A DNA stretch of 64,000 nt from Caenorhabditis remanei (taxonomy: Eukaryota > Nematoda > Chromadorea > Rhabditida > Rhabditidae), in the NCBI RefSeq assembly GCF_010183535.1, contig NC_071332.1, positions 18,972,001 through 19,036,000 of the forward strand. Reading direction: 5' to 3'. Below, piece after piece: positions 10,206 through 28,530 of the stretch (its first letter is position 1; the number at the start of each line of letters is the position of its first letter). Position numbers and translations under genes: made by a program. The notes beneath the pieces were generated by a model. The model was not told where the DNA came from, searched no databases, and saw only the letters and a program-made list of their open reading frames with translations.

Positions 10206-11585
10206 TTAATTTTTGTAGATTTTAAAAGATTCCGAACCGAATCGATTCAAAACATGAAAAAACAAATTTGAATTTGGAATTGAGTAAACTTCTGGAGAGG
10301 CAGTTGGCTGAAGATTCAGAACTCTCTTCACTTCTTCCGTATCGTATCTCGTCTGATTTACTATTTGGATACGTTCCAGGTTGATCGATTTGGATACACT
10401 CTGAAATTCAATTATATGAAGTTTGTCAGAAAATATAAAAATTACATCGCAAAGGTTGACGATATCTGTCAAAGAAATAGAGTCAAAATACGCTTCAATA
10501 GTTGAAAAATGAAGAAAATGTTCCATCGGTGGCAATCCGTCTCCAAATACACGCAATTCGAGATGTTTCGCCTGTTTCCATTGATCCATTTCGGAAATTT
10601 CGTTGATATAGTTTTGTTCAAATCCTTGGGAAATACTCATTAGTTCGAGTGTTCCCGGTTTCAAACACCGTAAAACGTTCATCAAGTCCTTTGGTTCTTC
10701 AGCGAAAATCGTGCAGTTCTCCACGTGAATTTTACGATACAATGAATTGAGTAGCTTGATTACGGCATCAGTATACAAAAAAGCGCCTTCAAACCAGAAA
10801 CGAGAATTGGTATAAAACGTGAAATTTTTCAGACGAAGTTTCGGATTTCTCAGTAAAGGTTCCAATACTCCGAGTACACGTGTTTTAATCACTTCCAATG
10901 GAAGACGGGACAAAACATCACATTCCCATTCAACGATAAGTGCACCATCCACAATGACGTCTGGGCAACCAAACACTGTATTATCGAACTCGATGTGAGT
11001 ACAAGGAGGCGCCTGCTGATCTATAATGGCTCGAAGTCGATATGAAACGTTGCGAAGATTCAAACTGAAAACTAAAACGTTTAAAAGTTTTCCCTTCATA
11101 ATTCGCTCACTATGATTGGATATCACATCTATCAATAATTTCAGAGATCACATCTTCTGGGAAATCGGAGAATGTTACACGAGTAAATGACTGTCCATTT
11201 TCAAAGCGTTTGAACCAATAATCATGATCTTCCTTATCGATTTCATGATTTTTGAATGCTTCAGACAAATCATCGATTGACTTTTCAGCAGATTTTCTAT
11301 TGATGACATCAGTAAGAATGCATCCACGAATGTCTGGTATTGGGAGATCTCTGAAAATTAAAAAAAATATATATTTAATTCAGAACTATTTTCTTACCTA
11401 TCTTTTTCTTTGGAATATTGTTTGAACCAATACTTATAGTCTTTAAATGCAATCGCTCCTTTTCCCATTATTTCACACATTTTCTCATAACTTTCGTATG
11501 ATTTTTTGGCTCCTCTCCATTGATAATTGTCATAGAGAATAAGTGCACGAAGATCGATTGGAGACTCCGGAGGCGGTCGATCCAT
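10206..11585 (-). CDS. FBXA protein: HTH - HTH - F-box - FTH, intact
   Basis: Exons 11398-11585 (HTH 1, MDRPPPESPIDLRAL), 11111-11350 (HTH 2 plus F-box start FSDFPEDVISEIIDRCDI), 10446-11064 (SLNLRNVSYRLRAIIDQ, then FTH core with LLRNPKLRLKNF, RCLKPGTLELM and MDQWKQAKHLEL) and 10206-10400 (FTH end, IPNSNLFFHV). The sum is exactly 414 codons (413 aa). Two introns are themselves open in frame, so an unspliced reading exists across the FTH part, but the conserved GT-AG sites argue for splicing. The upstream DNA carries the cluster's shared element at about 11638-11665. No lesions seen. Confidence 0.8.
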
Positions 11586-11795: not shown

Positions 11796-12487
11796 TTATT
11801 GTCTCCAACGCGACTCAGTCATCTTCCTCCAACCCACAGTGTCTTGAGCAGGAAGATTATTATTATAGCCGATTGTATTCAATTCGATTTGTCGATCCAA
11901 AATTTTCGCTTTCATATTCGCTGAAAATCCCAAAAATTGTTTCAACGGCACGAGATCCTCTTTCGTTTTGTACAGTTTCAGAGCATGGGAAAGCAGATTT
12001 TCTAGCTCGTATTTTCCAGCCAATTCGAGTTTTTTATTCGCATCAAAATCAGTAGAAATTATGAAATATTCCACGTGATATTTAGCGGCTGGCAGCAAGA
12101 ATCGATCGGCAAGTTCGAGAAGTTTCTCGGCGTTTTGCTCTGAACGAAAGGAATTTTTCAGTTTAAAAAATTTATGTTTAGTACCTGTCGGCTTGATTGG
12201 ATACGGATGAACAAGACTTAGAAGTGTGACAAAGTCTTCGAATTTAACGTCGTGAATCGGGATTTCCTGCATCGATTTTTCTTTAAAATCTCCGTTGAAA
12301 AGAGTGTTGAAATAGTCGGAATGACATGAGAGAAGCTGGAAAATAATGTAATTTGATTTGAAAAAATAATCGAATTTACCGTTTTATTAGCATGCAATTT
12401 CTTTCCCTGGACGACAAGAATCGCATCCGTTTTGTCCGTTTGAGCAAATACCGATTCGTAGATATTGATTGCAGGAGTTACTGACAT
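11796..12487 (-). CDS. BTB-domain protein (BTB plus short BACK-like region)
   Basis: Three exons: 12380-12487 (MSVTPAINIYESVFAQTD, ILVVQGKKLHANK), 12185-12335 (LLSCHSDYFNTLFNGDF, IHDVKFEDFVTLLSL) and 11796-12139 (EQNAEKLLELADRFLLPAAK and a helical tail). They sum to exactly 201 codons (200 aa). The fold is a BTB/POZ domain followed by the first helices of a BACK region; there is no MATH domain in front, unlike the nematode BATH family. By family knowledge such proteins recruit CUL-3. The first two exons are closely similar to those of the three BTB/FBXA fusions nearby, so this gene represents the unfused donor type. Confidence 0.75.
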
Positions 12488-12801: not shown

Positions 12802-13005
12802 TCAGTTTCTAAACAAAAAGATGGCTTCTTCATAGTATTTATTAAACCATAACTCGTACTCTTCATAAGAAATCGTTATTTTTCCTAATAATTCGCACAA
12901 TTTCTCATAATTTTCATATGATTTTCCAGCAGTTTTCATTCGATAATTGTCATAGAGAATGAGTGCACGAATATCGATTGGAGAATCCGGAGGTGGTCGA
13001 TTCAT
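12802..13005 (-). pseudogene. Orphan FBXA first exon (HTH 1 only)
   Basis: ATG at 13005 opens an intact HTH 1 (MNRPPPDSPIDIRALILYDN ... ISYEEYELWFNKYYEEA) ending FLFRN and a stop. The shared upstream element lies at about 13057-13085. No HTH 2, F-box or FTH exon follows; the BTB gene starting at 12487 comes next. It could be expressed as a 67-residue HTH peptide, but it is most simply a leftover exon whose partners were lost when the BTB gene moved in. Confidence 0.6.
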
Positions 13006-13227
13006 TTTATGAAAATTTATGTAAAAAGTTAATCTGTGAAGTTCGAATTACAGGTTTCAGAAAGTAATAGAAGCGAGCGAAACGCGGCAGGAATATCTAT
13101 TTAAAGAGAACGAACCAAAATCAACTTTATCAGAATTTTAACAAAAAACAGAGGCTTAACAGTAAATTTTAAAACATAATGCCTAGAAACAACAACATAA
13201 GTTTTATAATATCAAAAAATCCACAAA

Positions 13228-15115
13228 TCAATACATTCTAAAATTAGCTTTAAAGATTTCAATGCTAGATGTGGAAAGGCGAAAGACAAGATTGGGATAC
13301 AGTTCTGATTTAAGACGCGGGGCTGAAGAATGATTATATTGAAGGCGCAGTGCGTTCTTGACAGCTTCCTGATCATATCTTACAACTGTTACTCTACAGT
13401 ACTCGAAATTTGCCGAATTGGAAAGCACCTGTGAATGAAATACTTATAAATGCTTTCCGATTCTATTTAACTAACACTTGTCAAATTCATCACGTCTTCC
13501 ATCGAAAGCGATTTAATATTGATTAAAAACCTGTCGAAATGGAAGAAATGCTCGATCGATGTGTCTAGAAGTTTCCCGCTCAAAAAAATTTCAGCATTTC
13601 TCCATTGTTCCGTTTCAACCAATTCATGAATAGTCGAGAGCTCTTCGTCGTCTTCGTTTTCGAACACCAACAGAGATTTGAGTGTTCCAGGTTTGACACA
13701 TTTCACCACAGTAATGATATCCTTGTCCGTCAGAAAATGAATGTGAAATTCTTTCACGTGGATTTTATGACTCAAAGAGTTGAGAAGATCGCGAAACATT
13801 TGATTGTTTTTATTATGCGTATCATCGGAAAATACAAGTTGAACATAGTCCAATTGAAGTTTAGGATTTTTCAGCAATATTTCCAAATAGTTGAACGCCA
13901 CTTTCTGGTAATCGTTGTCCTTAAACTTGTAGAAATGATCAGGGAAATCTGAAGGAGGGTCCACGTCGTTAAGATCAGTAAAAATCACTGGCACTTCATT
14001 GTTCAGATTCAAGGAGATCTGGTTTTCTTCACATTCGACTATGATATGTGTAATTGGTGGTTTTGTGTGATCGACAATGCTTCGGAGGCTATGTGACACG
14101 TTTCGGAGTTGAAAACTGAAAAATTAAGAAAATTATATCATCAATTGGAATATATGAATGCTTACTATGACGTCAAATCACACGTTCCCGCGATTTCAGA
14201 GATCACATCTTCTGGCAAATTAGAGAATGTAACTTGACTGAATAAGTGTCCATTTTTGAATCGTTTGTACCAATAACCATGATCTTCCTTATCGATTTTA
14301 TGATTTTTGAATACATCACACAAGTCATTCATTGATTTTTGAGCAGTTTTTCCATTGATGACATCTGATAGAATGCAACAACGAATGTCTGGAATCGGGA
14401 GATCATCTCTGAAGATAAATAATTGTAAACATCATCCACAAACATGATTTCTTACCTTTCTTTTTGTTTATAAAACATTTGGAACCAATATTTATATTCT
14501 TCATATGAAATCGCTTCTTTTCCCATTGCTTTACACAGCTTTTCATATTTTTTATACGATGTTTCAGCGGATTCCCACAGACGAAGATTATAGAGAACGA
14601 ATGCAGATAGATCGATTGGAGAATCCATGAATTTGCATTTGTCAGCAATTCGAATCTTGTTCATTTTTTCCATTTTGCACATTTTCATAAATAGTTCCAA
14701 CGAATACTTGGCAGATGGAATGAGGAATCGTTCGGCAAGTTCCAGAAGTTTCTCGGCGTTTTCTTCTGGAAAAATGAGTTTTTTTGGTTTAATAATTTTA
14801 ATATTATACCTGTCGGCTTGATGGGACATGGATAAAGAAGACTTAAAGTCGCTGCGAAATCTTCGAATTTGACATCTTTGATTGGGATTTCCTGCATCGA
14901 TTTTTCTTTAAATTCTCCATTGAAAAGCGTCTTAAAGTACTCGGAATGGAATGAGAGAACCTGAAAATAGTGCAACATTTCATTTTTTAAATCGAAATGA
15001 AACGTACCGCTTTATTAACATGCAACTTCTTTCCCTCCACCACCAGAATTGCATCAGTTTTGTCCGATTTAGCAAATGTCGACTCGTAGATACTCATTGC
15101 TGGAGTCACAAACAT
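13228..15115 (-). CDS. BTB/FBXA fusion: BTB - BACK start - HTH - HTH - F-box - FTH
   Basis: Six exons: 15008-15115 and 14810-14960 (BTB: MFVTPAMSIYEST, LSFHSEYFKTLFNGEF), 14456-14765 (BACK helices EENAEKLLELAERFLIPSAK, then directly MDSPIDLSAFVLYN and HTH 1), 14166-14408 (HTH 2 and F-box start, SNLPEDVISEIAGTCDL), 13476-14115 (F-box end QLRNVSHSLRSIVD and FTH core) and 13228-13428 (FTH end). All introns are GT-AG and the exons sum to exactly 551 codons (550 aa). The BTB-to-HTH join lies inside one exon, so it does not depend on a splicing guess. Known biology: BTB binds CUL-3, F-box binds SKR/CUL-1. Having both in one protein is unusual. The internal ATG at the join (about 14627-14629) is an alternative start, but the paralogue at 25262 has AAG there. 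Confidence 0.75.
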
Positions 15116-15634
15116 TTTTCGCTGAAAAAATGATTGAATCCATGTTTTCTGTGAATTCTCCTATCAACACGTGTAATTTTCGTAAAATAAATGCACACAA
15201 ATATACTCAACGCGGAAAGAACGCATTATATTGATAAAGTCAATAACAAAAAAACAAAACAGTTCTATTGTACTCACTCCTGAAATATTGTACTCAAAAA
15301 CAGGTTTCTATGAGCCTTTCCTTGAAGTACTTACAGTTTTCATACAAATTCAAGATTTTTGCCTCCGAAAAACTGATTTTTCAGACAGTTTTCTTGAAAA
15401 TTCTATTTTTGAATTATTCGGTTTTTTCGGTACGAAATTTTCAAAAAAATAAGTTTTTCGAAAATTGTTCGGAAAAGTTTTTCGCACAGCCCTGGTTCCG
15501 GCGCCGAGTAGGTAATTGTCGACAAGAAATAATAATTTTAAGAAGCGAAGCAAACGCTTGAGAACATAACGACAAAAAACAATCGAATACATTTCACAGC
15601 AACAAAATATCAATAAACCAAACATCAGTTACAT
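15116..15634. other. Intergenic, part of a segmental duplication
   Basis: No gene. About 15425-15634 is a copy of about 20485-20696, including cgcacagccctggttccggc and the gaagcgaagcaaacgc piece; a third, shorter copy is at about 22860-22990. Confidence 0.55.
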
Positions 15635-17015
15635 TTAAATATCAGCTATTTCAATAGAATTTGGGTAAAGATAGAATAAAAGATTTGGAAAGAGTTCTGA
15701 GAAACAGCCCTGATGAAGACGTAGCGCGTTCATGACAGCTTCCTGATCGTATCTTTTAACTTTTACTCGACAGCTCTCAAAATTGGGCGAATTGGAAAGA
15801 GCCTGAAAATCAATAATTTAGAAGTACTTTCAGATTTCATTCAACTGACGTGTGACAGATTCAGTACGTCTTCAATCGACAACGACACAATATTGATATA
15901 AAACTCGTCGAAATGGAAGAAGTGTTCGATCGATGTGTCTAGAAGATTCTCGTACGAGAACAACTTAGCTTGTTTCCATTGTTCCATCTCGACCAATTCA
16001 TCAATATTCGACAGCTCTCCGCCTTTGCACCCGAACACTATCAATCGTTCGAGTATTCCAGGTTTCATACATTTTACCACAGTAGTGATATCTTCGTACT
16101 TTGGAACAGAAAGGAAAAAGTGTTCCACGTGGATTTTATGGCTCAATGAGGTGAGAAGATCACGAAAGATTGGAAAGCTTTTCTTTGAGATATCATTGCG
16201 AATTTCAACTTGAAGAAAGTTCAATTGAAGTTTCGGATTTTTCAGTAACATCTCCAAATAGTTGAATGCCATCTTAGTGTAGTCATCGTCCTCAAACTTG
16301 TACAAATGTTTAAAATATACTTTAGAAAGATCCACACTTTTACGATCAGTAAAATATACTAATATTTGATTGTTTAGCTTGAAAGATACGTGGTTTCCTC
16401 CACATTCTACTATGATATGTGTAATTGGTGGTTTTGTGTGATCGACAATGCTTCGAAGGCCATGTGACACGTTTCGGAGTTGAAAACTGAAAAAAATTGA
16501 TAACTATTTCCATTAATTGGATTTTATAATTGCTTACAATGACACCAAATCACATTTCTCCACAATTTCAGTGATCAAATCTTCCGGCAAATTGGAAAAT
16601 GTAACTTGATTGAATAAGTCACCGTTTTCAAATCTTTTGAACCAATAGTCATGATCTTCTTTATCGATTTTATGGTCTTTGAATGTTTTACACAAGTTAT
16701 CGATTGATTTTTCTGCAGTTTTTCCATTGATGACATCAGAAAGGATGCATCCACGAATGTCTGGTTTTGGGAGATCATCTCTAAAAGAAAAGTGAAATAT
16801 CTCACCCCACAAAACAAGTTTTCTTACCTTTCTCTTTGTTTGGAATACTTTTTGAACCAATATTTATATTCTTCATATGAAATCGCTTCTTTTCCCATTG
16901 CTTCACACAGCTTTTCATAGTTTTTATATGAAGTTCCAGCGGATTTCATTTGATAATTGTCATAGAGAATAAGTGCACGAAGATCGATTGGAGAATCCGG
17001 AGGTGGTCGATTCAT
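15635..17015 (-). CDS. FBXA protein: HTH - HTH - F-box - FTH, intact
   Basis: Exons 16828-17015 (HTH 1, MNRPPPDSPIDLRALILYDN), 16538-16780 (HTH 2, PKPDIRGCILSDVINGKTA, then FSNLPEDLITEIVEKCDL), 15850-16486 (QLRNVSHGLRSIVDH, FTH core with LLKNPKLQLNFLQ and KCMKPGILERL) and 15635-15802 (FTH end, ALSNSPNFESCRVKV). The sum is 412 codons (411 aa). The donor of intron 3 is GTCAGT, shared by three paralogues, which supports its use. Near-identical twin at 20697-22076; the HTH 2/F-box exons of the pair look almost unchanged, whereas the FTH exon has accumulated replacements. Confidence 0.8.
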
Positions 17016-17246
17016 TTTATGAAATGTTCTGTAAAAAATTAATTTGTTAATTTCAAATCACAGGTGCCAGAAAGTAATAGAAGCGAGTGGAACGCAACAG
17101 AAATATCTATTTAAAGATAAAAAAAACTAAACTATATTTATTAGAAATGATAACGAAAAACAAAAGTTTAACAAAAGATGTTAGAACATAATGCCAAGAA
17201 ACAACAATATAAGTTTTATAGAAACAAAAAATCAACAGATGAAACA

Positions 17247-19512
17247 TCAGTGGGGATCTGAATAGTCAATGTTTCGAATCAAGAACTCTGATATGTAAAA
17301 TTGAATGACAAGATTTGGATAGAGTTCTGACAAATTGTTCTGGTCAAGACGAAGCGCATTCTTGACAGCTTCCTGATCGTATTTTTTAACTTTTATTTGA
17401 CAGATCTTGAAATCTGAATTATTGGAGAGAGCCTGAAAATCAATAATTTAGATTTACTTTCAGATTGTATTCAACTGACGTGTGCCAGATTCAGTGCGTC
17501 TTCAATCGAAAGCGAGATAATATTGATATAAAACTCGTTGAAATGGAAGAAGTGTTCGATCGATGTGTCTAGAAGTTGTACGATATCAAGGAATTTAGCT
17601 TGTTTCCATTGTTTCATCTCCACCAATTTATCAATACTCGGGAGTTCTTCTTCGTCTTCGGGGTATCCGCCCACCGTCAAATCTACGAGTGTTCCCGGTT
17701 TAATACATTTCAGCATAGTAATGATATCCTCGTCATTTTCAAAACTAATGGCAAAATCTTTCACGTGGATTTTATGACTCAATGAGCTGAGAAGATCGCG
17801 AAACATTTGATTGCTTTTGTTATGCTTGTTCTTGGAAAATCCAACTTCAAAATGGTTCAATTGAAGTTTCGGATTTTTCAGCACCATCTCCAAATTGTAG
17901 AATGCCACTTTCTGGTAATCGTTGTCCTTAAACTTGTAGAAATGATCAGGGAAATCACAAGGAGGGTCCACGCCGTTAAGATCAGTAAAAATCACTGGCA
18001 CTTCATTGTTCAGATTCAAGGAGATCTGGTTTTCTTCACATTCGAATGCGATAAGTACGAGTGGTGGTTTTGAGTAATCGAGAATGCTTCGGAAGCCATG
18101 TGACACTCTTCGGAGTTGAAGACTGAAAAAATTAAGATAATTATATCATCAATTGGAATATATGAATGCTTACTATGACGTCAAATCACACGTTCCCGCG
18201 ATTTCAGAGATCACATCTTCCGGCAAATTAGAGAATGTAACTTGACTGAATAAGTGTCCGTTTTTGAATCGTTTGTACCAATAACCATGATCTTCCTTAT
18301 CGATTTTATGATTTTTGAATACATCACACAAGTCATTCATTGATTTTTGAGCAGTTTTCCCATTGATGCCATCTGATAGAATGCATCCACGAATGTCTGG
18401 AATCGGGAGATCATCTCTGAAGATACATAATTGTAAAAATCATCCACAAAACATGATTTCTTACCTTTCTTTTTGTTTGTAATACACTTGGAACCAATAT
18501 TTATATTCTTCATATGAAATCGCTTCTTTTCCCATTGCTTTACACAGCTTTTCATATTTTTTATACGATGTTTCAGCGGATTCCCACAGACGAAGATTAT
18601 AGAGAACGAATGCAGATAGATCGATTGGAGAATCCATGAATTTGCATTTGTCAGCAATTCGAATCTTGTTCATTTTTTCCATTTTGCACATTTTCATAAA
18701 TAGTTCCAACGAATACTTGGCAGATGGAATGAGGAATCGATCGGCAAGTTCCAGAAGTTTCTCGGCGTTTTCTTCTGGAAAAATGAGTTTTTTTCCAGTT
18801 TAATAAATTTAATTTTGTACCCGTCGGCTTGATCGGATATGGATAAAGAAGACTTAAAGTCGCTGCGAAATCTTCGAAATAGACATCTTTAATTGGGATT
18901 TCTTGCATCGATTTTTCCTTGAATTCCCCATCGAAAAGCGTCTTGAAATAGTCGGAATGGAATGACAGAACCTGAAAATAGTATAATGTTTAGGCGCTAA
19001 GTTAGTTGGGGGGGGGGGGGGGGGCCACTCAAATTTTCGAAATTTTAGGCAATTTTTTTGACTGAAGGTGTGTGGCTGGAGGCGTGGGAGAGGCACTTTT
19101 TGCTACCGAACCTTTCTCTTAGGCTAGTTAGGTTTCTTAGAAATTCGGAAAAAAAAATTGACAAAAACTATTAATTTGTCAATTTTTGTCGTTTTTGTCA
19201 CTTTTTTCCGAATTTTTAAGAAACCTAAGCCTAAGAGAATGGTGAAAAATGGTCCCCCACAAGAATCACACAGATTTTGTAAACTTTGTTCATCTTTCAG
19301 CACACTGATTCGGAGTCCCCACAAAAATTGTTTTTGAGTGCCCCCCCCCCCCCCCCAACTAACTTAGCGCCAATATTTATTTGTTAACTCGAAACAAAAC
19401 TAACCGCTTTATTAACATGCAACTTCTTTCCCTCAACAATCAGAATTGCATCAGTTTTGTCCGATTTAGCAAATGTCGACTCGTAAATACTCATTACTGG
19501 AGTTTCAGACAT
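17247..19512 (-). CDS. BTB/FBXA fusion (second copy), intact
   Basis: Same six-exon plan as the gene at 13228-15115: 19405-19512 and 18821-18971 (BTB; MSETPVMSIYEST), 18465-18774 (BACK helices plus HTH 1, one continuous exon), 18174-18416 (HTH 2 and F-box start), 17480-18122 (F-box end QLRRVSHGFRSILDY and FTH core with VLKNPKLQLNHF and KCIKPGTLVDL) and 17247-17432 (FTH end). Total exactly 547 codons (546 aa). The HTH exons are almost identical to the first copy, while the FTH exon differs at many residues. The intron between the BTB exons is enlarged by a 379-bp inverted-repeat element. No stop or frameshift seen. Confidence 0.75.
18993..19371. mobile_element. Foldback/MITE element with G-run and C-run ends
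   Basis: Ends are ggcgctaagttagttgg plus a long G run (from 18993), and a long C run plus ccaactaacttagcgcc (to 19371). Inside is a second nested palindrome (about 19125-19235) around aggtttcttagaaattcgg and its complement. It sits in the first intron of the BTB/FBXA fusion, so splicing probably removes it. A decayed relative of its right part lies at about 62790-62880. No clear target-site duplication was found. Confidence 0.75.
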
Positions 19513-19700
19513 TTTTCTCTGAAATAATGATTGAATTTTCCAAAAAAAAAGGAGATTGTAGTCGCGTTACAGGTCTCAGAAAGTAATAGAAGCGGATAGA
19601 ACGCAAAAGAAGCAACAAAAATCAAACAAAAAACTTTCTTTTTTTTCAAAATACAACAAGAAAACCAACAGAAATTAAGAAATTTCATAAACAATTTTAG

Positions 19701-20336
19701 TTAATCGTAGCCAACAAGAGTAAAATAATAACTCAAAAGGTCTAACTTTGCCTTATCAGATAAAAGATTGTAGACAGCGTGTCTTTTGATTCCTTTGAAC
19801 TGACTACATGAAGTGAATTGCCTGATTCCATAATACATCAGATCCTGGAGTTTGTATTTGTCACCGATTCGAATCTTGTCCATTTTATCCTTACTGCTTG
19901 TTTTCACGTATAGTTCCAATGTATATTTGACTGATGGAATAAGAAATCGATCAGCAATTTCCAGAAGTCGCTCCACGTTTTCATCTGGAAAAATGGGGGT
20001 TTTCCAGTTTTGACATCATGATTTTATACCTGTCGGCTTGATTGGAGATGGATAAAGAAGACTCAAAGTCGCTGCGAAATCTTCGAATTTGACATCTCTG
20101 ATTGGGATTTCTGGCATCGATTTTTCTTTGAATTCTCCATTGAACAGAGTGTTGAAGTAGTCGGAATGGAATGAGAGAACCTGAAAATCGAACTTTTTAA
20201 ATTTAGATTTTAAATGAAACTAACCGCTTTGCTAAGTAACATGCAATTTCTTTCCCTCAACCACCAGAATTGCATCAGTTTTGTCCGATTTAGCAAATGT
20301 TGACTCGTAGATACTCATTGCTGGAGTTTCCGACAT
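19701..20336 (-). pseudogene. BTB gene with frameshifting insertion in exon 1
   Basis: Exons: 20225-20336 (MSETPAMSIYEST, ILVVEGKKLHV), 20030-20180 (LSFHSDYFNTLFNGEF) and 19701-19984 (DENVERLLEIADRFLIPSVK and a helical tail ending TLVGYD). Exon 1 is 112 nt where five relatives have 108: four extra bases create HV-T-stop and break the frame. If a GTTACT donor 16 bases earlier were used, the frame would be restored (177 codons) at the cost of the residues VNKA, which lie in a core BTB helix. It is therefore either a very young pseudogene or a rescued splice variant. The tail after DKYKLQD is the unfused version of the sequence at the BTB/FBXA joins. Confidence 0.6.
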
Positions 20337-20696
20337 TTTTCGCTGAAAAATTATTGAATCCATGTTTTCTGTGAATTCTCCAACTATCAACAAGTGCAAA
20401 TTTTCGTCAATTAAACACAAATATACTTAAAGCGGATAGAACACATTATATTGATGAATTCAATAACAAATACAAAACAATTTTTTTTCGGTACGAAATT
20501 TTCAAAAAAATATGTTTTTCGAAAATTGTTCGAAAAAGTTTTTCGCACAGCCCTGGTTCCGGCGCCGAGTAGGTAATTGCCAACAAGAAATAATAATTTT
20601 AAGAAGCGAAGCAAACGCTTTGAGAACATAATGTCAAAGAACAATCGAGTACATTTTATAGCAACAAAATATCAATAAATTAAACATTAGTTACAT
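20337..20696. other. Intergenic, duplicated flank
   Basis: No gene. From about 20485 it is colinear with the 3' flank of the gene at 15635-17015, about 5.06 kb away. 20420-20460 resembles 15205-15240 (gaacgcattatattgat). Confidence 0.5.
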
Positions 20697-22076
20697 TTAA
20701 ATATCAGCAATTTCAATAGAATATGGGGAAAGATAGAATAAAAGATTTGGAAAGAGTTCTGAGAAGCAACCCTGATCAAGACGAAGCGCGTTCATAACAG
20801 CTTCCTGATCGTATCTTTTAACTTTTACTCGACAGCTCTCAAAATTGGGCGAATTGGAAAGAGCCTGAAAATCAATAATTTAGAAGTACTTTCAGATTTC
20901 ATTCAACTGACGTGGGACAGATTCAGTACGTCTTCAATCGACATCGACACAATATTGATATAAAACTCGTCGAAATGGAAGAAGTGCTCGATCGATGTGT
21001 GTAGAAGATTCTCGTACGAGAACAACTTAGCTTGTTTCCATTGTTCCGTTCCAATCAATTCATCAATATTCGACAGCTCTCCGTCGTTGTATCCGTACAC
21101 TATCAATCGTTCGAGTGTTCCAGGTTTCATACATTTTACCACAGTAGTGATATCTTCGTACTTTGGAACAGAAAGGAAAAAGTGTTCCACGTGGATTTTA
21201 TGGCTCAATGAGGTGAGAAGATCACGAAAGATTGGAAAGCTTTTCTTTGAGATATCATTGCGAATTTCAATTTGAAGAAAGTTCAATTGAAGTTTCGGAT
21301 TTTTCAGTAACATTTCCAAATAGTTGAATGCGATCTTAGTGTAGTCATCGCTCTCATACTTGCACAAATGTTTAAAATATACTTTAGAAAGATCCACGCC
21401 TTTACGATCAGTAAAATATACTAATATTTGATTGTTCAGCTTGAAAGAGACGTGGTTTCCTCCACATTCGACTATGATATGTGTAATTGGTGGTTTCGAG
21501 TGTTCGACAATGCTTCGGAGGCTATGTGACACGTTTCGGAGTTGAAAACTGAAAAAATTGATAACTATTTCCATTAATTGGATTTTATAATTGCATACAA
21601 TGACACCAAATCACATTTCTCCACAATTTCAGTGATCAAATCTTCCGGCAAATTGGAAAATGTAACTTGATTGAATAAGTCACCGTTTTCAAATCTTTTG
21701 AACCAATAGTCATGATCTTCTTTATCGATTTTATGGTCTTTGAATGTTTTACACAAGTTATCGATTGATTTTTCTGCAGTTTTTCCATTGATGACATCAG
21801 AAAGGATGCATCCACGAATGTCTGGTTTTGGGAGATCATCTCTAAAAGAAAAGTGAAATATCTCACCCCACAAAACAAGTTTTCTTACCTTTCTCTTTTT
21901 TTGGAATATTTTTCGAACCAATATTTATATTCTTCATATGAAATCGCTTCTTTTCCCATTGCTTCACTCAGCTTTTCATAGTTTTTATATGAAGTTCCAG
22001 CGGATTTCATTTGATAATTGTCATAGAGAATAAGTGCACGAAGATCGATTGGAGAATCCGGAGGCGGTCGATTCAT
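20697..22076 (-). CDS. FBXA protein: HTH - HTH - F-box - FTH, intact
   Basis: Twin of the gene at 15635-17015, displaced by about 5060 bp. Exons: about 21889-22076 (HTH 1), 21599-21842 (HTH 2 and F-box start), 20910-21548 (QLRNVSHSLRSIVEHSK and FTH core) and 20697-20865 (FTH end, ending SIEIADI). The HTH 2/F-box exon appears identical in protein sequence to the twin. FTH replacements include KFEDDDYTKM to KYESDDYTKI and FGCKGGEL to YGYNDGEL. Expected role is the same as the twin; substrate range may differ because the changes cluster in the probable substrate-binding part. Confidence 0.8.
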
Positions 22077-22117
22077 TTTATGAAATGTTCTGTAAAAGAT
22101 AATCTGTGAAAATCGAA

Positions 22118-22594
22118 CAGTGATGGGCGCGAGTGAAGCTGAGCTTCACTCCAAAATCCACGGAGGGAGGAAAAATGTCTGCGTCTCTCGTTGTCGGCAA
22201 TGGTGGGGCGCGCTCTCTCGCACTCTCTTCCCCCGCGCTGTGGCCGCTGCCGCCACGGAGGGAGTCACTAATTTCACTCCCCGCCCCCCACCAGGGTTGG
22301 GAAATTCCGGGCCGGGCCGACTGAGAAATTTTCCTCGGCCCGGTCGGCCCGGCTCCTGTAGAAATTTGAAATTTTTTGAAAAATCTTGAATTTTTTTTGC
22401 AAAAAAGTGTATTTTTCGACTGTGTTTTAGAATATCGGTAAAAACATTAGCGTACGAAAAATTTTGAGAATTTTGACTTTTTTAAATGAAAATTTTGCAG
22501 AAATTTGTGAAAAAATGGTGCACATTTTTTGAATCCGGGCCGGGCCGGAAGAATTTTTTGTCAGCCCGGAGTTTCCCAACCCTGCCCCCCACTG
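22118..22594. mobile_element. GC-rich inverted-repeat element (outer, interrupted)
   Basis: The left end cagtgatgggcgcgagtgaa (22118) is imperfectly mirrored by ttcactccccgccccccact plus g around 22273-22594, once the nested element at 22292-22584 is removed. Internal cgagtgaagctgagcttcac is itself palindromic. The CAGTG ends suggest a hAT-like non-autonomous element. No target duplication recognised. Confidence 0.5.
22292..22584. mobile_element. hAT-like MITE with 8-bp target duplication
   Basis: Terminal inverted repeats cagggttgggaaattccggg (left) and gtttcccaaccctg (right end). The element is flanked on both sides by the direct repeat CCCCCCAC (22284-22291 and 22585-22592). CAGGG termini with an 8-bp duplication are the hallmark of hAT transposons. 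At 293 bp with no coding potential it is non-autonomous. It is nested in the older element at 22118-22594. Confidence 0.85.
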
Positions 22595-22857
22595 AACAGT
22601 CGAAAAATGATAACTTTAAAAAGATTTCCGAGAAAAATATTCAAAATTCGCAGCTTCCCGCCATTCGGTGTTTGCGGACTTTGTCGTCGCTTACCGTACT
22701 CCAAACAGTTTTTTTAAAAAAGTATTGAGCGATTCCAACGCTTTCGGAATAAGTGAAAATACACAAGTTAATTTAAAAAAACAACAACATTTCATTAAAA
22801 ACTATTAGTAATCTTAACAGCCGACACAATAAAGAAGAATTCAATAAAAATATTCGA
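22595..22857 (-). pseudogene. Duplicated 3' end and flank of an FBXA gene
   Basis: 22595-22857 closely matches 25367-25627: the intergenic gtttgcggactttgtcgtcg piece, then the last codons of the final exon of the gene at 25563-28530 (minus strand, IFIEFFFIVSAVKITN). Only the exon's end is present, so it is a relic. Confidence 0.6.
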
Positions 22858-23024
22858 ATTTTTGAAATTTTCAAAAAATAAAGTTTTTCGCACAGCCCTG
22901 GTTCCAGCGCCGAGTAAGTAATTGCCAACAAGAAATAATAATTTTAAGAAGCGAAGCAAACGCTTTGAGAACATAATGTCAAAGAACAATCGAGTACATT
23001 TTATAGCAACAAAATATCATTAAA

Positions 23025-25262
23025 TCAAACATCAGTTACATTCAAATATATTTCAATACAATTTGGGGAAAGATAGAAGACAAGATTTGGATAGAGTTCT
23101 GAGCAATTATACTGATCAATGCGCAGCGCTTTCTCGACAGCTTCCTGGTCGTATCTTTTAACATTTACTTGACAGATCTTGAAATCGGGTGAATTGGAGA
23201 CAGCCTGAAAATCAATAATTTAGAAGTAATTTCACATAGTTGTCAAGGCCCGGGCCGGCCCGGCAAGGCCCGAAGGCCCGGGCCGGGCCGGGCCGGGCCG
23301 GGCCGGGCCGGGCCGGGCCGGTAGAAAATTTTCAAGGCCCGGCCCGGCCCGAAGGCCCGGCTTCAAAAAACGACCCTTTTTTTTCCAATTTTTTTTTCCA
23401 ATTTTTTTCAATTTTTCATCGGAAATGTGACCATTTTTGACTATTTTTCAGAATTTCTTCTAATTCTGACTGATAGTCGAAAATGTGACTTTTTCGCAAA
23501 AAAATTCAAAAAAATTCAAAAAATTTGAAAAAATTTGAAAATTTGACTTTCGCGCCAATTTGCCCGGGCCTTCGGGCCGGGCCTTGACAACTATGTAATT
23601 TCAGATTTCATTCAACTGACGTGTGACAGATTCATCACGTCTTCAGTCGACAACGACACAATATTGATGTGAAACTCGTTGAAATGGAAGAAGTGCTCGA
23701 TCGATGTGTGTAGAAGTTGATCGCTCGAAAAGATTTTAGCTTGTTTCCATTGTTCCATCTCGACCAATTCATCAATAGTCGAGAGTTCTCCGCCTTTGCA
23801 TCCGAACACTATCAATCGTTCGAGTGTTCCAGGTTTCACACATTTCAGCACAGCAATTATATCCTCGTCCTTTTGATCATCAAAGAAAATGTGTTCCACG
23901 TGGATTTTATGACTCAATGAGCTGAGAAGATCACGAAACATTTGATTGCTTTTATTATGCGTATCATTGGAAATTCCAACCCGAAAATTGTTCAATTGAA
24001 GTTTCGGATTTTTCAGCACCACTTCCAAATAGTTGAATGCCACCTTCGCGTAATCGTCGTCCACAAACTTGTAGAAATGTTCACCAAAATATGAAGAAGG
24101 GTTCACGCCGTTAATATCAGTATAACAGACTGTTACTTTACAGTTTAGATCGAAGGTGACGTGGTTTTCTCCAAAACGAACTGCGATAAATGTAAGTGGT
24201 GGTTTTGAGTGATCGAGAATGCTTCGGAGGCCACGGGACACTTTTCGGAGTTGAAGACTGAAAAAAATAAGATAATTACTTCATCATTAATTGCAATTTA
24301 TAATTGCTTACTATGACTTAATATCACATCTCTACACAATTTCAGTTATCACGTCTTCCGGCAAATCGGAGAATGTAATTGGATTGAACAGGTGTCCATT
24401 TTCAAATCGTTTGTACCAATAACCATGATCTTCCTCATCAATTTTAGGATGTTTGAATGCATCAAACAAGTCATCAATCGATTTTTCAGCTGGTTTCCCA
24501 TTGATGCCATCTGATAGAATGCATCCACGAATGTCTGGAATCGGGAGATCATCTCTGAAATTACAGAATTCTAAAATATCATCCACAAAACATGTTTTCT
24601 TACCTTTCTTTTTGTTTGGAATACTTTTTGAACCAATATTTATAGTCTTCAAATGAAAACGTTGGTATTCTCATTGCTTCACACAACTTTTCATAATTTT
24701 CATATGATTTTTCGGCAGTTTTCCATTGAGAGCTATCATAGAGAATGAGTGCACGAATATCGATTGGAGAATCCTTGAATTTGAATTTGTCGGCATTTCG
24801 AATCTTGTCGATTTCATCCATAAAGCACGTTTTCACGAATTGTTCCAATGTATATTTGACTGATGGAATAAGAAATCGATCAGCAATTACTAGAAGTCGC
24901 TCCACGTTTTCATCTGGAAAAATGAGTCTTTTTTCAGTTTTGACATCATGATTTTATACCTGTCGGCTTGATTGGAGATGGATAAAGAAGACTCAAAGTC
25001 GCTGCGAAATCCTCGAAATTGACATCTTTGATAGGAATTTCTGTCATCGATTTTTCTTTGAAATCTCCATTGAAAAGCGTTTTGAAGTAGTCGGAATGGA
25101 ATGAGAGAACCTGAAAATCGAACTTTTTAAATTTCCATTTGAAATAGAGCCTACCGTTTTATTAACATGCATTTTCTTTCCCTCCACCACCAGAATTGCA
25201 TCAGTTTCATCCGAATGAGCGAATAGTGACTCGTAGATACTAATCGATGAAGTTTCCGACAT
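23025..25262 (-). pseudogene. BTB/FBXA fusion (third copy) with nonsense codon in F-box
   Basis: Six exons as in the other two fusions: 25155-25262, 24960-25110 (BTB, MSETSSISIYESLFAHSDET), 24604-24913 (BACK helices, DKFKFKDSPIDIRAL, HTH 1), 24312-24554 (HTH 2 and F-box start), 23621-24257 (F-box end, FTH core) and 23025-23204 (FTH end). They sum to exactly 543 codons, but codon 24332-24334 is TAG (ITEIV-stop-RCDIKS, where relatives have GAG or GAT). The join has AAG instead of ATG, so no internal start is available and the HTHs can only be made as part of a BTB fusion. The last intron contains a GC-rich foldback element. If expressed, the product would be BTB-HTH-HTH with a broken F-box. Confidence 0.75.
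23235..23595. mobile_element. GC-rich foldback element in FBXA intron
   Basis: Ends catagttgtcaaggcccgg and ccgggccttgacaactatg are reverse complements; next to the left end are tandem ggcccgg / ccgggccgg units. TA dinucleotides just inside both ends could be a Tc1/mariner-type TA target site. The middle is AT-rich and includes agaatttcttctaattctga. Copies: 56421-56724 and a degenerate one near 51118-51330. It is inside the last intron of the fusion pseudogene. Confidence 0.75.
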
Positions 25263-25562
25263 TTTGCGCTGAAAAATGATCGAATTTTCAGGATAAAGTG
25301 TTGAATTTAAGCTAAAAATCAAGTTTTAACAGTGAAGAGGTGGAAATTTATAATTTTTGTTAATGGGAACAATCGAAAAATGATGACTTTAAAAAGATTT
25401 CCGAGAAAATATTCAAAATTTGCAGCTTCCCGTCATTCGGTGTTTGCGGACTTTGTCGTCGCTTACCGTACTCCAAATAGTTTTTTTTACAAATATTGAG
25501 CGATTCCAACGCTTTCGGAATAAGTAAAAATACACAACTTATAATAAAAAAACAAAATTTCA
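25263..25562. other. Intergenic, source of the 22.6-22.86 kb copy
   Basis: No gene. Contains the promoter-proximal sequence of the fusion gene starting at 25262, then about 25367-25562, which is duplicated at 22595-22790. Confidence 0.5.
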
Positions 25563-28530
25563 TTAAAAACCATTAGTAATCTTAACAGCCGACACAATAA
25601 AGAAGAATTCAATAAAAATATTCGAATGAGGAATTGAGAATTTCACTGAAGACGGCAAATAACTTCGGTATACTTCTGGCCGAAGAGCTAGTTGGAGAAA
25701 TTGGAAGTCCATTGGTAGACGAGATTGAATGTAGCATGATTCGAAATTTGGAGATTTGGAGAGAGCCTGGAAACGGGATTGTTGGAATAGGGGGATTTTG
25801 GGGAAAAATTGTAGAAAATTCGGTTCAAAATCATTCAAAAACCGCAAAAATTCCAATTTTCAGCTTTTTCATACTGAATTATAGTCAAAAATTTGACTAA
25901 AAATTCAAAAAAATCTGAAAAAATAAGAATTTTGGCGTCGGCTTTGACAACTATGGAAACAGACGGGGAACATTCCGATGGCCTAGGAATCCAAATTCAA
26001 AAAATTCGGTCGTAAGTTTTTCGGGCTGAAAATGCTAGTTTTTCTAGTTTCTAGCGGCCAAAAAGTGTCTGAAAGTTTTAAAAAAGCCTTCAAAAATGTA
26101 AATTTTGCATAAAATCGGGGCTTTTCGACATTTTCAAAGCAAAAATCATTTTTGCAACCCATCCCATTCTTACAACTGCGCCCCACCGCAAACGAGAGAG
26201 TATCGGCGAGAGAGATTTCCAGTTTTTGACCCATTTTTTCTATTTTGTTAACAATTTCCAAAAAAATTCATTAAAAATGCGAGAATTGGTCAAAAACTGT
26301 GAAAATCTGTGTCGGCGGTAGAGAAAAACTCTGCGTCTCTCGCCGAAACTCCCTCGTTTGCGTTGGGGCGTAGTTGTAAGAGAGATTATTTTACACTTAC
26401 ATCAACTAACTCCACCACATCATTGACTGAAATCGAGTCAACAGAAATCTCAAATGTCTTAAAATGAAAGAAATGCTGAATCTCTGATTCCATAAGCCTA
26501 ATTCTCTTGGCCATCCTCAACTGTTCCGCCTGTTTCCACTGCTCCGTCTGAGCCAAGTCTCTAATTATCCAAAGATGATCTCCTCGATCCAAAATCTCAA
26601 TTCGTCTATCCTCTTCCAGTGACAAATACTTGAGTGCTCCAGGCTTCAAACATTCCAAAATTTGCATCGCATCTATCTCATAATCCACATAAATCGAGCA
26701 GTTCTCCACGTGGATTTTGTGACCTAGAGAACGAAGAGCAATGAATAAATCCACCTGATTTTCCATAAGTTCTTGACTGAATCTTGGAAATCCGTAGTGA
26801 AATCGATGATTGGCATCTGAAGATGCGCTGATTCGTAGAGAATTCAATTTCAATTTCGAATTTCCCAATGCGAATTTCAAATCGCTGTGACCAGTCCGCG
26901 CGTACTCCTCATATGGATATATCAAGATTGGAAAATGAAGATAATTTAAGACGGAATGATTCGAATAGACTAGAATTCGAAAATTGTAATCGAGAATGAT
27001 GTAGTTGGCACTGCAAGTGACTTGGATGTCAGTGTATGCAGGTTTTGAACGGTCGACGACACTTCGTAGATCACGGGATACTTTTCGGAGGATCAGACTG
27101 CAAAAACACGGAGATTTGAAGGGAACTTGGCGCCAAAATTCGAATTTTTAAAAATTTTTTGTATGTTTTTCGCGAAAAAGTCAAATATCCGACTGTCATT
27201 CAGAATTAGAAGAAATTCCGAAAAATCATCAACAATTTTTCATATTTTTGATTAAAAGTTGAAAGAAATTTGACAGCCTGGGTGTCAATACAAAAATTTG
27301 AAAATTTAATTTTTTTCGAAATTTTTTTGCAAAAGAGTCGAATTTTCGACTAAATTTTTATCAAAAAAGGTCAAAAATCCTATGAAAGCTTGAGTTTTAT
27401 CGGTATTTAAAACATAGTCGAAAATTTGACTTTTTCGCAGAAAAAATTTCGAAAAAAGGCAATTTTTAGAATAGAAAATGTCAACATTTTTGATGATTTT
27501 GCAAAATTTCTTCTAATTCTGAATGATAGTCGACAATTTGACTTTTTCGCAAAAAAAATTCAAAAAAATTGAATATTTGGAGCCAATTATCCTGGTTTGA
27601 TAAGTATGAAAAATTGTTTTTTTCTTCAATTTTTCTGCAAAATAATCCGCCTTACTTCGTCTTCAAATCACATTTCTCCACTATTTTCGATATCACATCG
27701 ATCGGCAAATCGGTGAATGTAGGGAATGAAAATCTGAAAAAAAGAACTGAATAATTTCTAATAAAAAATCAATAAAATCTCACCTTTTATCAATAAATCG
27801 TTCATACCAACATCCATGCTCTTTTTCATCAATAGAAAATATCTCAATTAACTCATTATACGAATTTTCTACAGATTTTCCATCGATTACATCAGAAAGA
27901 ACGCAGGTTCGAATATCTGGTGAGAGGAAGTGTCTGGAAACTCAAAATTGAAAAATTTGAAGAAAAAAAATCGATTTATTAGTTCGGCACAGTTTTTACA
28001 ACTGCGCTCCACCGAAATGCCGTTCAAAAATGTCTCTTTTTCTCTGAGTCTCTCAATCTCGCACATAATTTTCCTCGATTTCGGTAGAGCGCGGTTGTAA
28101 GAAGGGTGCCGTGCTGATACCTTCTGTTCAACTCCGAGCCATAGAACTCTCTAAAATATTTGAAAATCCATTTTTGAGAATTATATTCCTTCTCCCATTC
28201 CAAATGTAAAATCGGGCGATTTGAGTAAAAATTTTCATTATTTATAACATCAGCAGAAGTCCCAACCACTTCAGAATTATCACTGAAAACTCTTCAATTT
28301 TTGTTAATTTACTCTCAAAAATCGATATTTTACCTATTTTTCTGATTAATTTCTTTGGTACAATAATTGAACCAATATTCGTAGTCTTGATAAGAAATTG
28401 CTCCTTTTCCCATCACTTCACACAACTTTTTATAATCATTGAATGATTTTTCGACAGTTTTCCATCGAGAAACATTATAGACAATGAGTGTAAGAACATC
28501 ACCCGCTGGTACGTTGGGAATGTTGGTCAT
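25563..28530 (-). CDS. Divergent FBXA protein with three HTH-like exons
   Basis: Six exons: 28334-28530 (HTH 1, MTNIPNVPAGDVLTLIVYNV), 28121-28282 (a diverged HTH-like unit around YNSQKWIFKYFREFYGSELN), 27784-27933 (HTH, PDIRTCVLSDVIDGKSVENS), 27656-27733 (F-box start, FTDLPIDVISKIVEKCDL), 26401-27097 (LILRKVSRDLRSVVD, FTH core with ALGNSKLKLNSLRI and ECLKPGALKYL) and 25563-25766 (FTH end). Total is exactly 496 codons (495 aa), all GT-AG. It is the most divergent gene of the left cluster. Introns are enlarged by repeats: a foldback element at 26169-26380, another at 27987-28112, and AT-rich decayed repeat DNA at 27110-27640. The middle HTH-like unit is my inference; its tryptophan and aromatic spacing match, but identity is low. 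Confidence 0.7.
26169..26380. repeat. Inverted-repeat element, cttacaactgcgc family
   Basis: cttacaactgcgccccaccg at the left end is mirrored by gcgttggggcgtagttgtaag at the right, and inside cgagagagtatcggcgagag mirrors ctctcgccgaaactccctcg. It lies in the last intron of the gene at 25563-28530. Other members are at 27987-28112, 45958-46073 and near 48530-48605. Confidence 0.7.
27987..28112. repeat. Inverted-repeat element, cttacaactgcgc family
   Basis: Left ggcacagtttttacaactgc and right gcggttgtaagaagggtgcc are imperfect reverse complements. It sits in the intron between the second and third exons of the gene at 25563-28530, immediately before the second exon's 3' end. Confidence 0.65.

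Follow-up and report, generated by a model that had tools for sequence, protein, structure and literature searches.

As a rule, CUL-1 ligases and CUL-3 ligases take their adaptors from different sets of proteins. In the 64,000-nucleotide stretch of the Caenorhabditis remanei genome analysed here (the window, C5:18972001-19036000), a gene designated A carries a BTB domain and an F-box in a single frame. Its closest described relative is the A2 F-box family, in which a Tc1/mariner-type HTH, an F-box, and an FTH domain follow one another, e.g., in FBXA-215 (PMC12062965); the fused genes share this body in the same order. Statements on published work given here refer to the passages of the sources that were covered. 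The published A2 proteins begin with the HTH, whereas the fused genes have an additional N-terminal BTB domain with its leader and have lost the A2 start (PMC12062965). The second group of relatives comprises the BTB-only C. remanei proteins (CRE_09861, CRE_09858, and that of gene D in the window), whose BTB head is as in the fused genes, D having the same type of leader as well; in comparison with CRE_09861 the fused genes break off the BTB sequence about 50 residues earlier and gain an F-box.

With the CUL3 adaptors SPOP, KLHL3, KEAP1, and KBTBD2 the fused BTB shares the fold and the first 3-box helix, and with SPOP and KLHL3 also the position of the phi-x-E motif, but its 3-box is cut, no BACK, MATH, or Kelch match is present, and an F-box and FTH follow. 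An F-box and a BTB likewise belong to one pathway in the case of the F-box proteins FBXO22 and FBXL17, which read the BTB dimer as a degron; there, however, the two act in trans, as receptor and substrate, and in the fused genes they form one chain (PMC11185555).

No account of a protein fusing BTB and an F-box was found in the literature, searched mostly via titles and the beginnings of abstracts, subscription papers being poorly covered. The same searches turned up no described family with the order BTB-HTH-HTH-F-box-FTH, in agreement with the first-pass annotation of this DNA. A survey of BTB proteins gives no BTB-F-box class in the passages covered (PMC1257465), and two further papers mention both domains, with no BTB-F-box fusion in the passages covered (PMC10015627, PMC4209131). 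In the covered part of the A2 paper BTB is mentioned in connection with BTB-integrase proteins, as an interaction domain, in the methods, and in a reference (PMC12062965), while the survey of five Caenorhabditis species, listing 1426 F-box genes in C. remanei, has no 'BTB' in the main text as covered (PMC8665587). The HTH-F-box-FTH combination by itself is that of the known A2 family (PMC12062965); the fusion of BTB to A2 is unreported in the literature found. The fused sequences are already public under general names, and what is new is their reading as a fusion family.

Structure of Gene A

The features of gene A are as follows:

Gene A, 13228..15115, minus strand: BTB-HTH-HTH-F-box-FTH; six exons, 551 codons including the stop; corresponds to GCK72_021183
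Exon 1, 15008..15115, minus strand: start of BTB
Exon 2, 14810..14960, minus strand: BTB core with phi-x-E (F53-K54-E55)
Exon 3 (join exon), 14456..14765, minus strand: end of BTB, 3-box helix alpha7, then HTH 1
Join, 14611..14643, minus strand: 33 nt, with GGAT common to both parent gene types
Exon 4, 14166..14408, minus strand: HTH 2 and start of the F-box
Exon 5, 13476..14115, minus strand: end of the F-box and FTH
Exon 6, 13228..13428, minus strand: C-terminus of FTH; not in the GCK72_021183 model

Rebuilding of the exons reproduced the six-exon model first proposed for 15115-13228, with 1653 nt of coding sequence (551 codons with the stop) and five GT...AG introns of 44-50 nt each. The passage from BTB to HTH lies inside a single exon (14765-14456) and, as claimed, does not depend on a guess about splicing. 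In the Pfam scan all four expected domains were found above their cut-offs: BTB at residues 13-113 (88.8 bits, cut-off 20.5), HTH_48 in two stretches (64.7 bits, cut-off 24.1), the F-box at residues 251-289 (27.4 bits, cut-off 20.5), and FTH at residues 374-510 (92.4 bits, cut-off 22). The predicted domain order was thereby upheld, except for the 'BACK helices' placed behind the BTB: neither BACK nor MATH is among the seven Pfam families listed up to E 1, gene A has no Kelch match, and the part derived from the BTB gene continues beyond the BTB domain for one helix only. With its F-box and FTH above the cut-offs and a mariner-type HTH before the F-box, gene A shows the domain features of the A2 family, its HTH not being at the very N-terminus because the BTB stands in front.

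The public C. remanei proteins are predicted models, those with GCK72 tags belonging to strain PX506 and those with CRE_ tags to strain PB4641. GCK72_021183 is identical to gene A over 88% of the model and has the same BTB-HTH join; it ends two codons beyond exon 5, without the last exon. A last exon like that of gene A is present in CRE_09862, CRE_13704, CRE_18284, and CRE_09863. That the joined gene A is real is almost certain, and the fused protein is very probably made.

Extent of the Fusion Family

The first-pass annotation spoke of one gene; that gene exists, but a single gene understates the case, the join exon being matched end to end at no fewer than seven places of the C. remanei genome: three in the window (A, B, and C), three in a second cluster (A', B', and C', C5:18.405-18.416 Mb), and one, X4, on C4 (C4:24,888,484-24,888,795; gene span C4:24889143-24887265). 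Two join-exon queries of 104 residues yielded 95 and 115 matches; as the search scores the best candidates alone, seven is a lower bound. Each of the seven places matches both queries over at least 103 residues, stop-free and with 58% identity or more. The remaining matches mostly cover one half, residues of about 47-104 (HTH) or 1-48 (BTB), and those exceeding 80 residues are at most 42% identical.

When built exon by exon, six of the seven gene models have an uninterrupted frame between start and stop codon. The two further fused genes of the window are:

Gene B, 17247..19512, minus strand: second open fusion, 547 codons with the stop; insert in intron 1
Gene C, 23025..25262, minus strand: third fusion; in-frame TAG inside the F-box; insert in intron 5

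The counterparts of gene C, i.e., C' and CRE_18284, have no stop at the position of its TAG; in the part of gene C before the stop Pfam shows no F-box match. As to the inserts, that in gene B (window 18980-19395) has runs of G and C at its ends and lies in an intron of 433 nt as compared with about 45, and that in gene C (window 23230-23600) is rich in GGGCC repeats, the intron being of 416 nt as compared with about 47.

Three other annotated C. remanei proteins, CRE_09862, CRE_13704, and CRE_18284, have the same join; in these, as in gene B, the F-box and FTH exceed the Pfam cut-offs and two HTH_48 stretches are present. A 131-residue join query (CRE_09862, residues 85-215) matched 20 proteins, four of them over its full length, all from C. 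remanei, the next one covering 73%. A 33-nt join pattern has three matches in the window against none expected; since it was derived from these very copies, it provides no independent test. The protein search with gene A, in which the best 7992 candidates by word sharing were scored, returned 83 matches at E <= 1e-3, nine of them with BTB, HTH_48, F-box, and FTH according to precomputed domains. Five of the nine, examined by eye, were not counted as this fusion: P0011, P0012, and P0016 consist of a longer BTB protein, a linker, and then the likely original HTH start, in P0013 the BTB sits at the C-terminus, and P0023 from C. tropicalis resembles three genes in a row. These five may be merged gene models. 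P0012 (GCK72_021209) and P0016 (CRE_11435) show a different joining of BTB and A2, one in each annotation set, and represent either merged models or a second real fusion.

The seven genome places and the three CRE_ proteins rule out a single-case artefact, and C. remanei apparently has a small, young family of BTB-F-box fusion genes. It could be argued that the BTB exons and the HTH/F-box exons are expressed separately, as two products, the long frame remaining unused; a Met is present at the join in A, B, A', B', CRE_09862, and CRE_13704, and public models resembling mergers of neighbouring genes do exist (CRE_19721 and GCK72_021042). No Met is present there, however, in C, C', X4, and CRE_18284, the join lies within one exon at all seven loci, and joined proteins occur in both C. 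remanei annotation sets; we regard separate expression as extremely improbable.

The second cluster (C5:18.402-18.420 Mb, in the sequences L009 and L010) has the same gene order as window positions 12836-26500, from which it is 0.58 Mb apart on the same contig, and is about 84-96% identical to it in long collinear stretches. It is either a segmental duplication or the product of two haplotypes separated by the assembly.

Parent Genes and Origin of the Fusion

The unfused genes of the window that bear on the origin of the fusion are:

Gene D, 19701..20336, minus strand: BTB-only, parent type; exon 1 apparently disrupted by a small insertion with a stop in frame
Gene F1, 15635..17015, minus strand: unfused A2 gene, HTH-HTH-F-box-FTH, GCK72_021184
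Gene F2, 20697..22076, minus strand: unfused A2 gene
Gene E, 11796..12487, minus strand: BTB-only, with an A2 gene as its immediate downstream neighbour; known at the level of start, stop, and frames
Gene G, 10206..11585, minus strand: A2 gene immediately following E; known at the level of its frames

F1 and F2 are ordinary members of the A2 family with two HTH stretches. Read 5' to 3' with the genes, the array consists of C (fused), F2, D (BTB), B (fused), F1, A (fused), an HTH fragment, E (BTB), and G (A2). The fragment, located between A and E (window 13005-12802), is a lone A2-type HTH-1 exon without the rest of a gene.

In the fused genes the BTB and the first 3-box helix of a BTB-only gene continue in frame, within one exon, into an A2 gene, entering it immediately behind the start codon. 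At the shared GGAT the similarity of D to gene A stops and that of A2 genes starts, and the first residues of the F1 start, MNRPPPDSPID, are lost in the fusion. At all seven fused loci the leader is of the BTB type (TTTCAG or a similar sequence, followed by GCGAAAA or a near variant and by ATG); the leader region of F1 and F2 is ACAGAACATTTCATAAA. Among the BTB-only proteins, CRE_09861 (180 residues) is 95% identical to D over 144 residues, runs about 50 residues beyond the join point, and has no F-box. By tag number it is adjacent to the fused CRE_09862 and the A2-type CRE_09863, the contigs all being of 14,006 bases. Of the close unfused BTB copies, this genome yielded two, and neither looks intact: D has a stop in exon 1, the in-frame stop mattering more than the size of the insertion there (4 nt, counted by eye), and its counterpart D' (L009, about 9344-9137) has an insert of about 200 bp near the join-equivalent point; CRE_09861 is annotated as unbroken. 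The ends of the D' insert look like short inverted repeats. The supposition that any intact unfused BTB relative is absent was overturned by CRE_09861 and CRE_09858.

The starting layout would have been a tandem array in which a BTB gene is closely followed by an A2 gene of the same orientation. A deletion or unequal exchange at a short shared sequence would have taken out the tail of the BTB gene, the sequence between the two genes, and the start of the A2 gene, the BTB-type 5' leader being retained in the resulting genes. E and G are still separate neighbours, with about 447 bp between the join-equivalent codons, and one deletion there would yield such a fusion. Gene conversion would afterwards have placed the fused head on at least three types of FTH.

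In the BTB tree (97 rows, with CRE_09861 and the second-cluster genes excluded) A, B, C, CRE_09862, CRE_13704, and CRE_18284 together with D form a clade (support 100/99), within which C and CRE_18284 group with CRE_13704, D being weakly attached to these. In the HTH/F-box tree A, B, CRE_09862, and CRE_13704 stand together (100/99), with C and CRE_18284 apart; a single fused clade is not rejected there (approximately unbiased test, p 0.119). The placement of CRE_13704 thus differs, with C in the former and with A and B in the latter, and the fusion may have had one origin or two. In the FTH tree A groups with the unfused CRE_09863 (91/93) and then with F1/F2 (96/90), B with CRE_09862 and CRE_13704 (97/99), and C with CRE_18284 (100/99). 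In gene A exons 3-4 resemble B at 0.93-1.00, the similarity to D peaks in the leader and exon 1, and exon 5 is a mosaic; X4 combines a C-like front with a CRE_13704-like FTH (by eye). Fused heads that are related to one another are thus combined with three clearly distinct types of FTH (four if X4/CRE_13704 is set apart from B), a distribution of which gene conversion would be the simplest cause.

Constraint on the Fused Genes

The ratio of nonsynonymous to synonymous rates (dN/dS, omega) was obtained from the pooled changes of A-A', B-B', and X4-C', three pairs of open fused genes with no member in common. It is 0.14 for the BTB (p 3.6e-21; 76.0 synonymous and 49.0 nonsynonymous changes), 0.83 for HTH 1, 0.42 for HTH 2 (p 0.022), and 0.86 for FTH, the last being not distinguishable from 1. 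Codon likelihood fits on the six open genes agree with the pooled counts: for the BTB -1062.2 with omega free and -1102.3 with omega written as 1, for HTH 2 -453.5 and -456.9, and for HTH 1, F-box, and FTH values within 0.1 of each other; the log-likelihoods alone were used from these fits, the output not confirming that the second run held omega at 1. The BTB ratio does not prove that the fused BTB itself is under selection, since dS is unequal: in A-A', B-B', and X4-C' it is 0.28, 0.31, and 0.97 for the BTB and 0.019, 0.064, and 0.31 for FTH. In all three pairs it is thus far higher for the BTB; the BTB end does not share the history of the rest, and the simplest account is that unfused BTB genes were its conversion donors. 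In matched fused pairs the FTH omega is 0.47 (B-B'), 0.31 (C-C'), and 0.93 (A-A', 14 changes); in the unfused neighbours it is 0.21 (F1-F1') and 0.37 (F2-F2'), the counts being too small to judge whether constraint on the F-box and FTH is relaxed in the fused genes.

The fused genes might be by-products of a fast tandem array, perhaps translated, in which the fusion drifts through birth and death of copies with no selected function; this is quite unlikely. It would agree with the stop in gene C, with pooled omega values close to 1 for the F-box and FTH, with a BTB constraint signal that may be imported, and with the high turnover reported for the 1426 F-box genes of C. remanei (PMC8665587). 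Against it, six of the seven copies, diverged as they are, have an open frame, and three additional proteins are annotated; the unfused copies D and D' are both broken, unlike most fused ones; and the matched pairs B-B' and C-C' show an FTH omega of 0.47 and 0.31.

BTB Structure and Possible Ligase Contacts

The reading favoured here, with slightly less than even confidence, is that of a dimeric F-box receptor that could bring CUL-1, and perhaps CUL-3 too, to one set of substrates. The BTB would dimerise the receptor and offer a surface for CUL-3 (phi-x-E and alpha7), the F-box would offer one for SKP1-type proteins, and FTH, perhaps with the HTH, would bind the substrate. Binding of SKP1-type proteins has been reported for F-box proteins of C. 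elegans, not for the fused ones, and the HTH of A2 proteins has been proposed as a protein-binding platform (PMC12062965). If CUL-3 docks on the BTB, two ligases would meet on one receptor; if not, the result would be an SCF receptor with a new dimerisation head.

The phi-x-E of gene A (F53-K54-E55) aligns with M83-S84-E85 of KLHL3, F-K-E is kept at six of the seven loci, and in a fold search the predicted BTB structure resembles BTBs, CUL3-bound ones among them. The model used was the second one, built with BTB rows; the first, with few rows covering the BTB, was poor in this domain (block predicted local distance difference test, pLDDT, 28-61). The second is weak at residues 191-270, i.e., HTH 2 and the start of the F-box (block pLDDT 47-72), and the matches of the fold search were mainly due to the BTB, with little information on the remaining parts. 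In KLHL3 the BTB makes up about 80% of the CUL3-binding surface, the interface including alpha7 and the alpha7/alpha8 loop, and the 3-box contributes to binding in KLHL3 and SPOP (PMC3616122). The phi-x-E motif and the BTB fold make the sequence and the model compatible with CUL-3 docking. Dimerisation of the BTB is fairly probable; binding of the fused protein to CUL-3 is possible, with the balance leaning somewhat against it, and binding to both cullins is doubtful.

Several observations weigh against the reading favoured here. C' and CRE_09862 have F-K-D instead of F-K-E; the phi-x-E residues fall within the sole weakly modelled stretch of the BTB (51-60), and the model is matched almost equally well by BTBs without a role as CUL3 adaptors. 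The BTB-derived part ends after alpha7, and a helix of HTH 1 takes the place of the second 3-box helix; SPOP without its BACK region binds CUL3 far more weakly (PMC3616122). The pooled F-box omega, 0.92 on about 24 changes, is not distinguishable from 1, so that constraint on the F-box is not shown; the BTB sequence may have been imported, its constraint, in part or in full, having acted in unfused donors; and one of the seven fused copies, gene C, has a stop.

An SCF-only receptor, in which the BTB is just a dimerisation head and CUL-3 binding was lost with the cut 3-box, fits the replacement of the second 3-box helix by the first helix of HTH 1, the extension of the KLHL3 interface to alpha7 and the alpha7/alpha8 loop (PMC3616122), the retention of the BTB fold, and the interaction of C. 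elegans A2 proteins with SKR-1 (PMC12062965). We consider it unlikely, the conservation of F-K-E at six of the seven loci and the large share of the BTB in the KLHL3 binding surface (PMC3616122) speaking against it. The converse, a CUL-3 adaptor with the BTB as its working end and a vestigial F-box, would agree with the contrast between the strongly constrained BTB and the F-box omega of 0.92; however, the F-box exceeds the Pfam cut-off in A, B, CRE_09862, CRE_13704, and CRE_18284, its omega estimate is weak because changes are few, and the BTB constraint may be imported, and this explanation is very unlikely. The dimeric F-box receptor favoured here may also be put in a more specific form, as a self-contained dual-cullin receptor whose dimer docks CUL-3 through the BTB and CUL-1 through the F-box on the same substrate, the BTB head being exchanged onto FTH receptors by conversion in a fast-evolving array; in that form it is rather unlikely.

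Apart from these genes, the window contains at 31010-29655 (minus strand) an open frame of 451 residues unlike the surrounding F-box genes, possibly belonging to a mobile element.

Significance of the Fusion Family

A natural, multi-copy, open family joining both adaptors makes it possible to ask whether two cullin ligases act via one receptor, and whether swapping the head moves a receptor between ligases. The fusion also suggests a route by which the ligase-adaptor arrays of nematodes form new receptors, namely by fusing neighbours.
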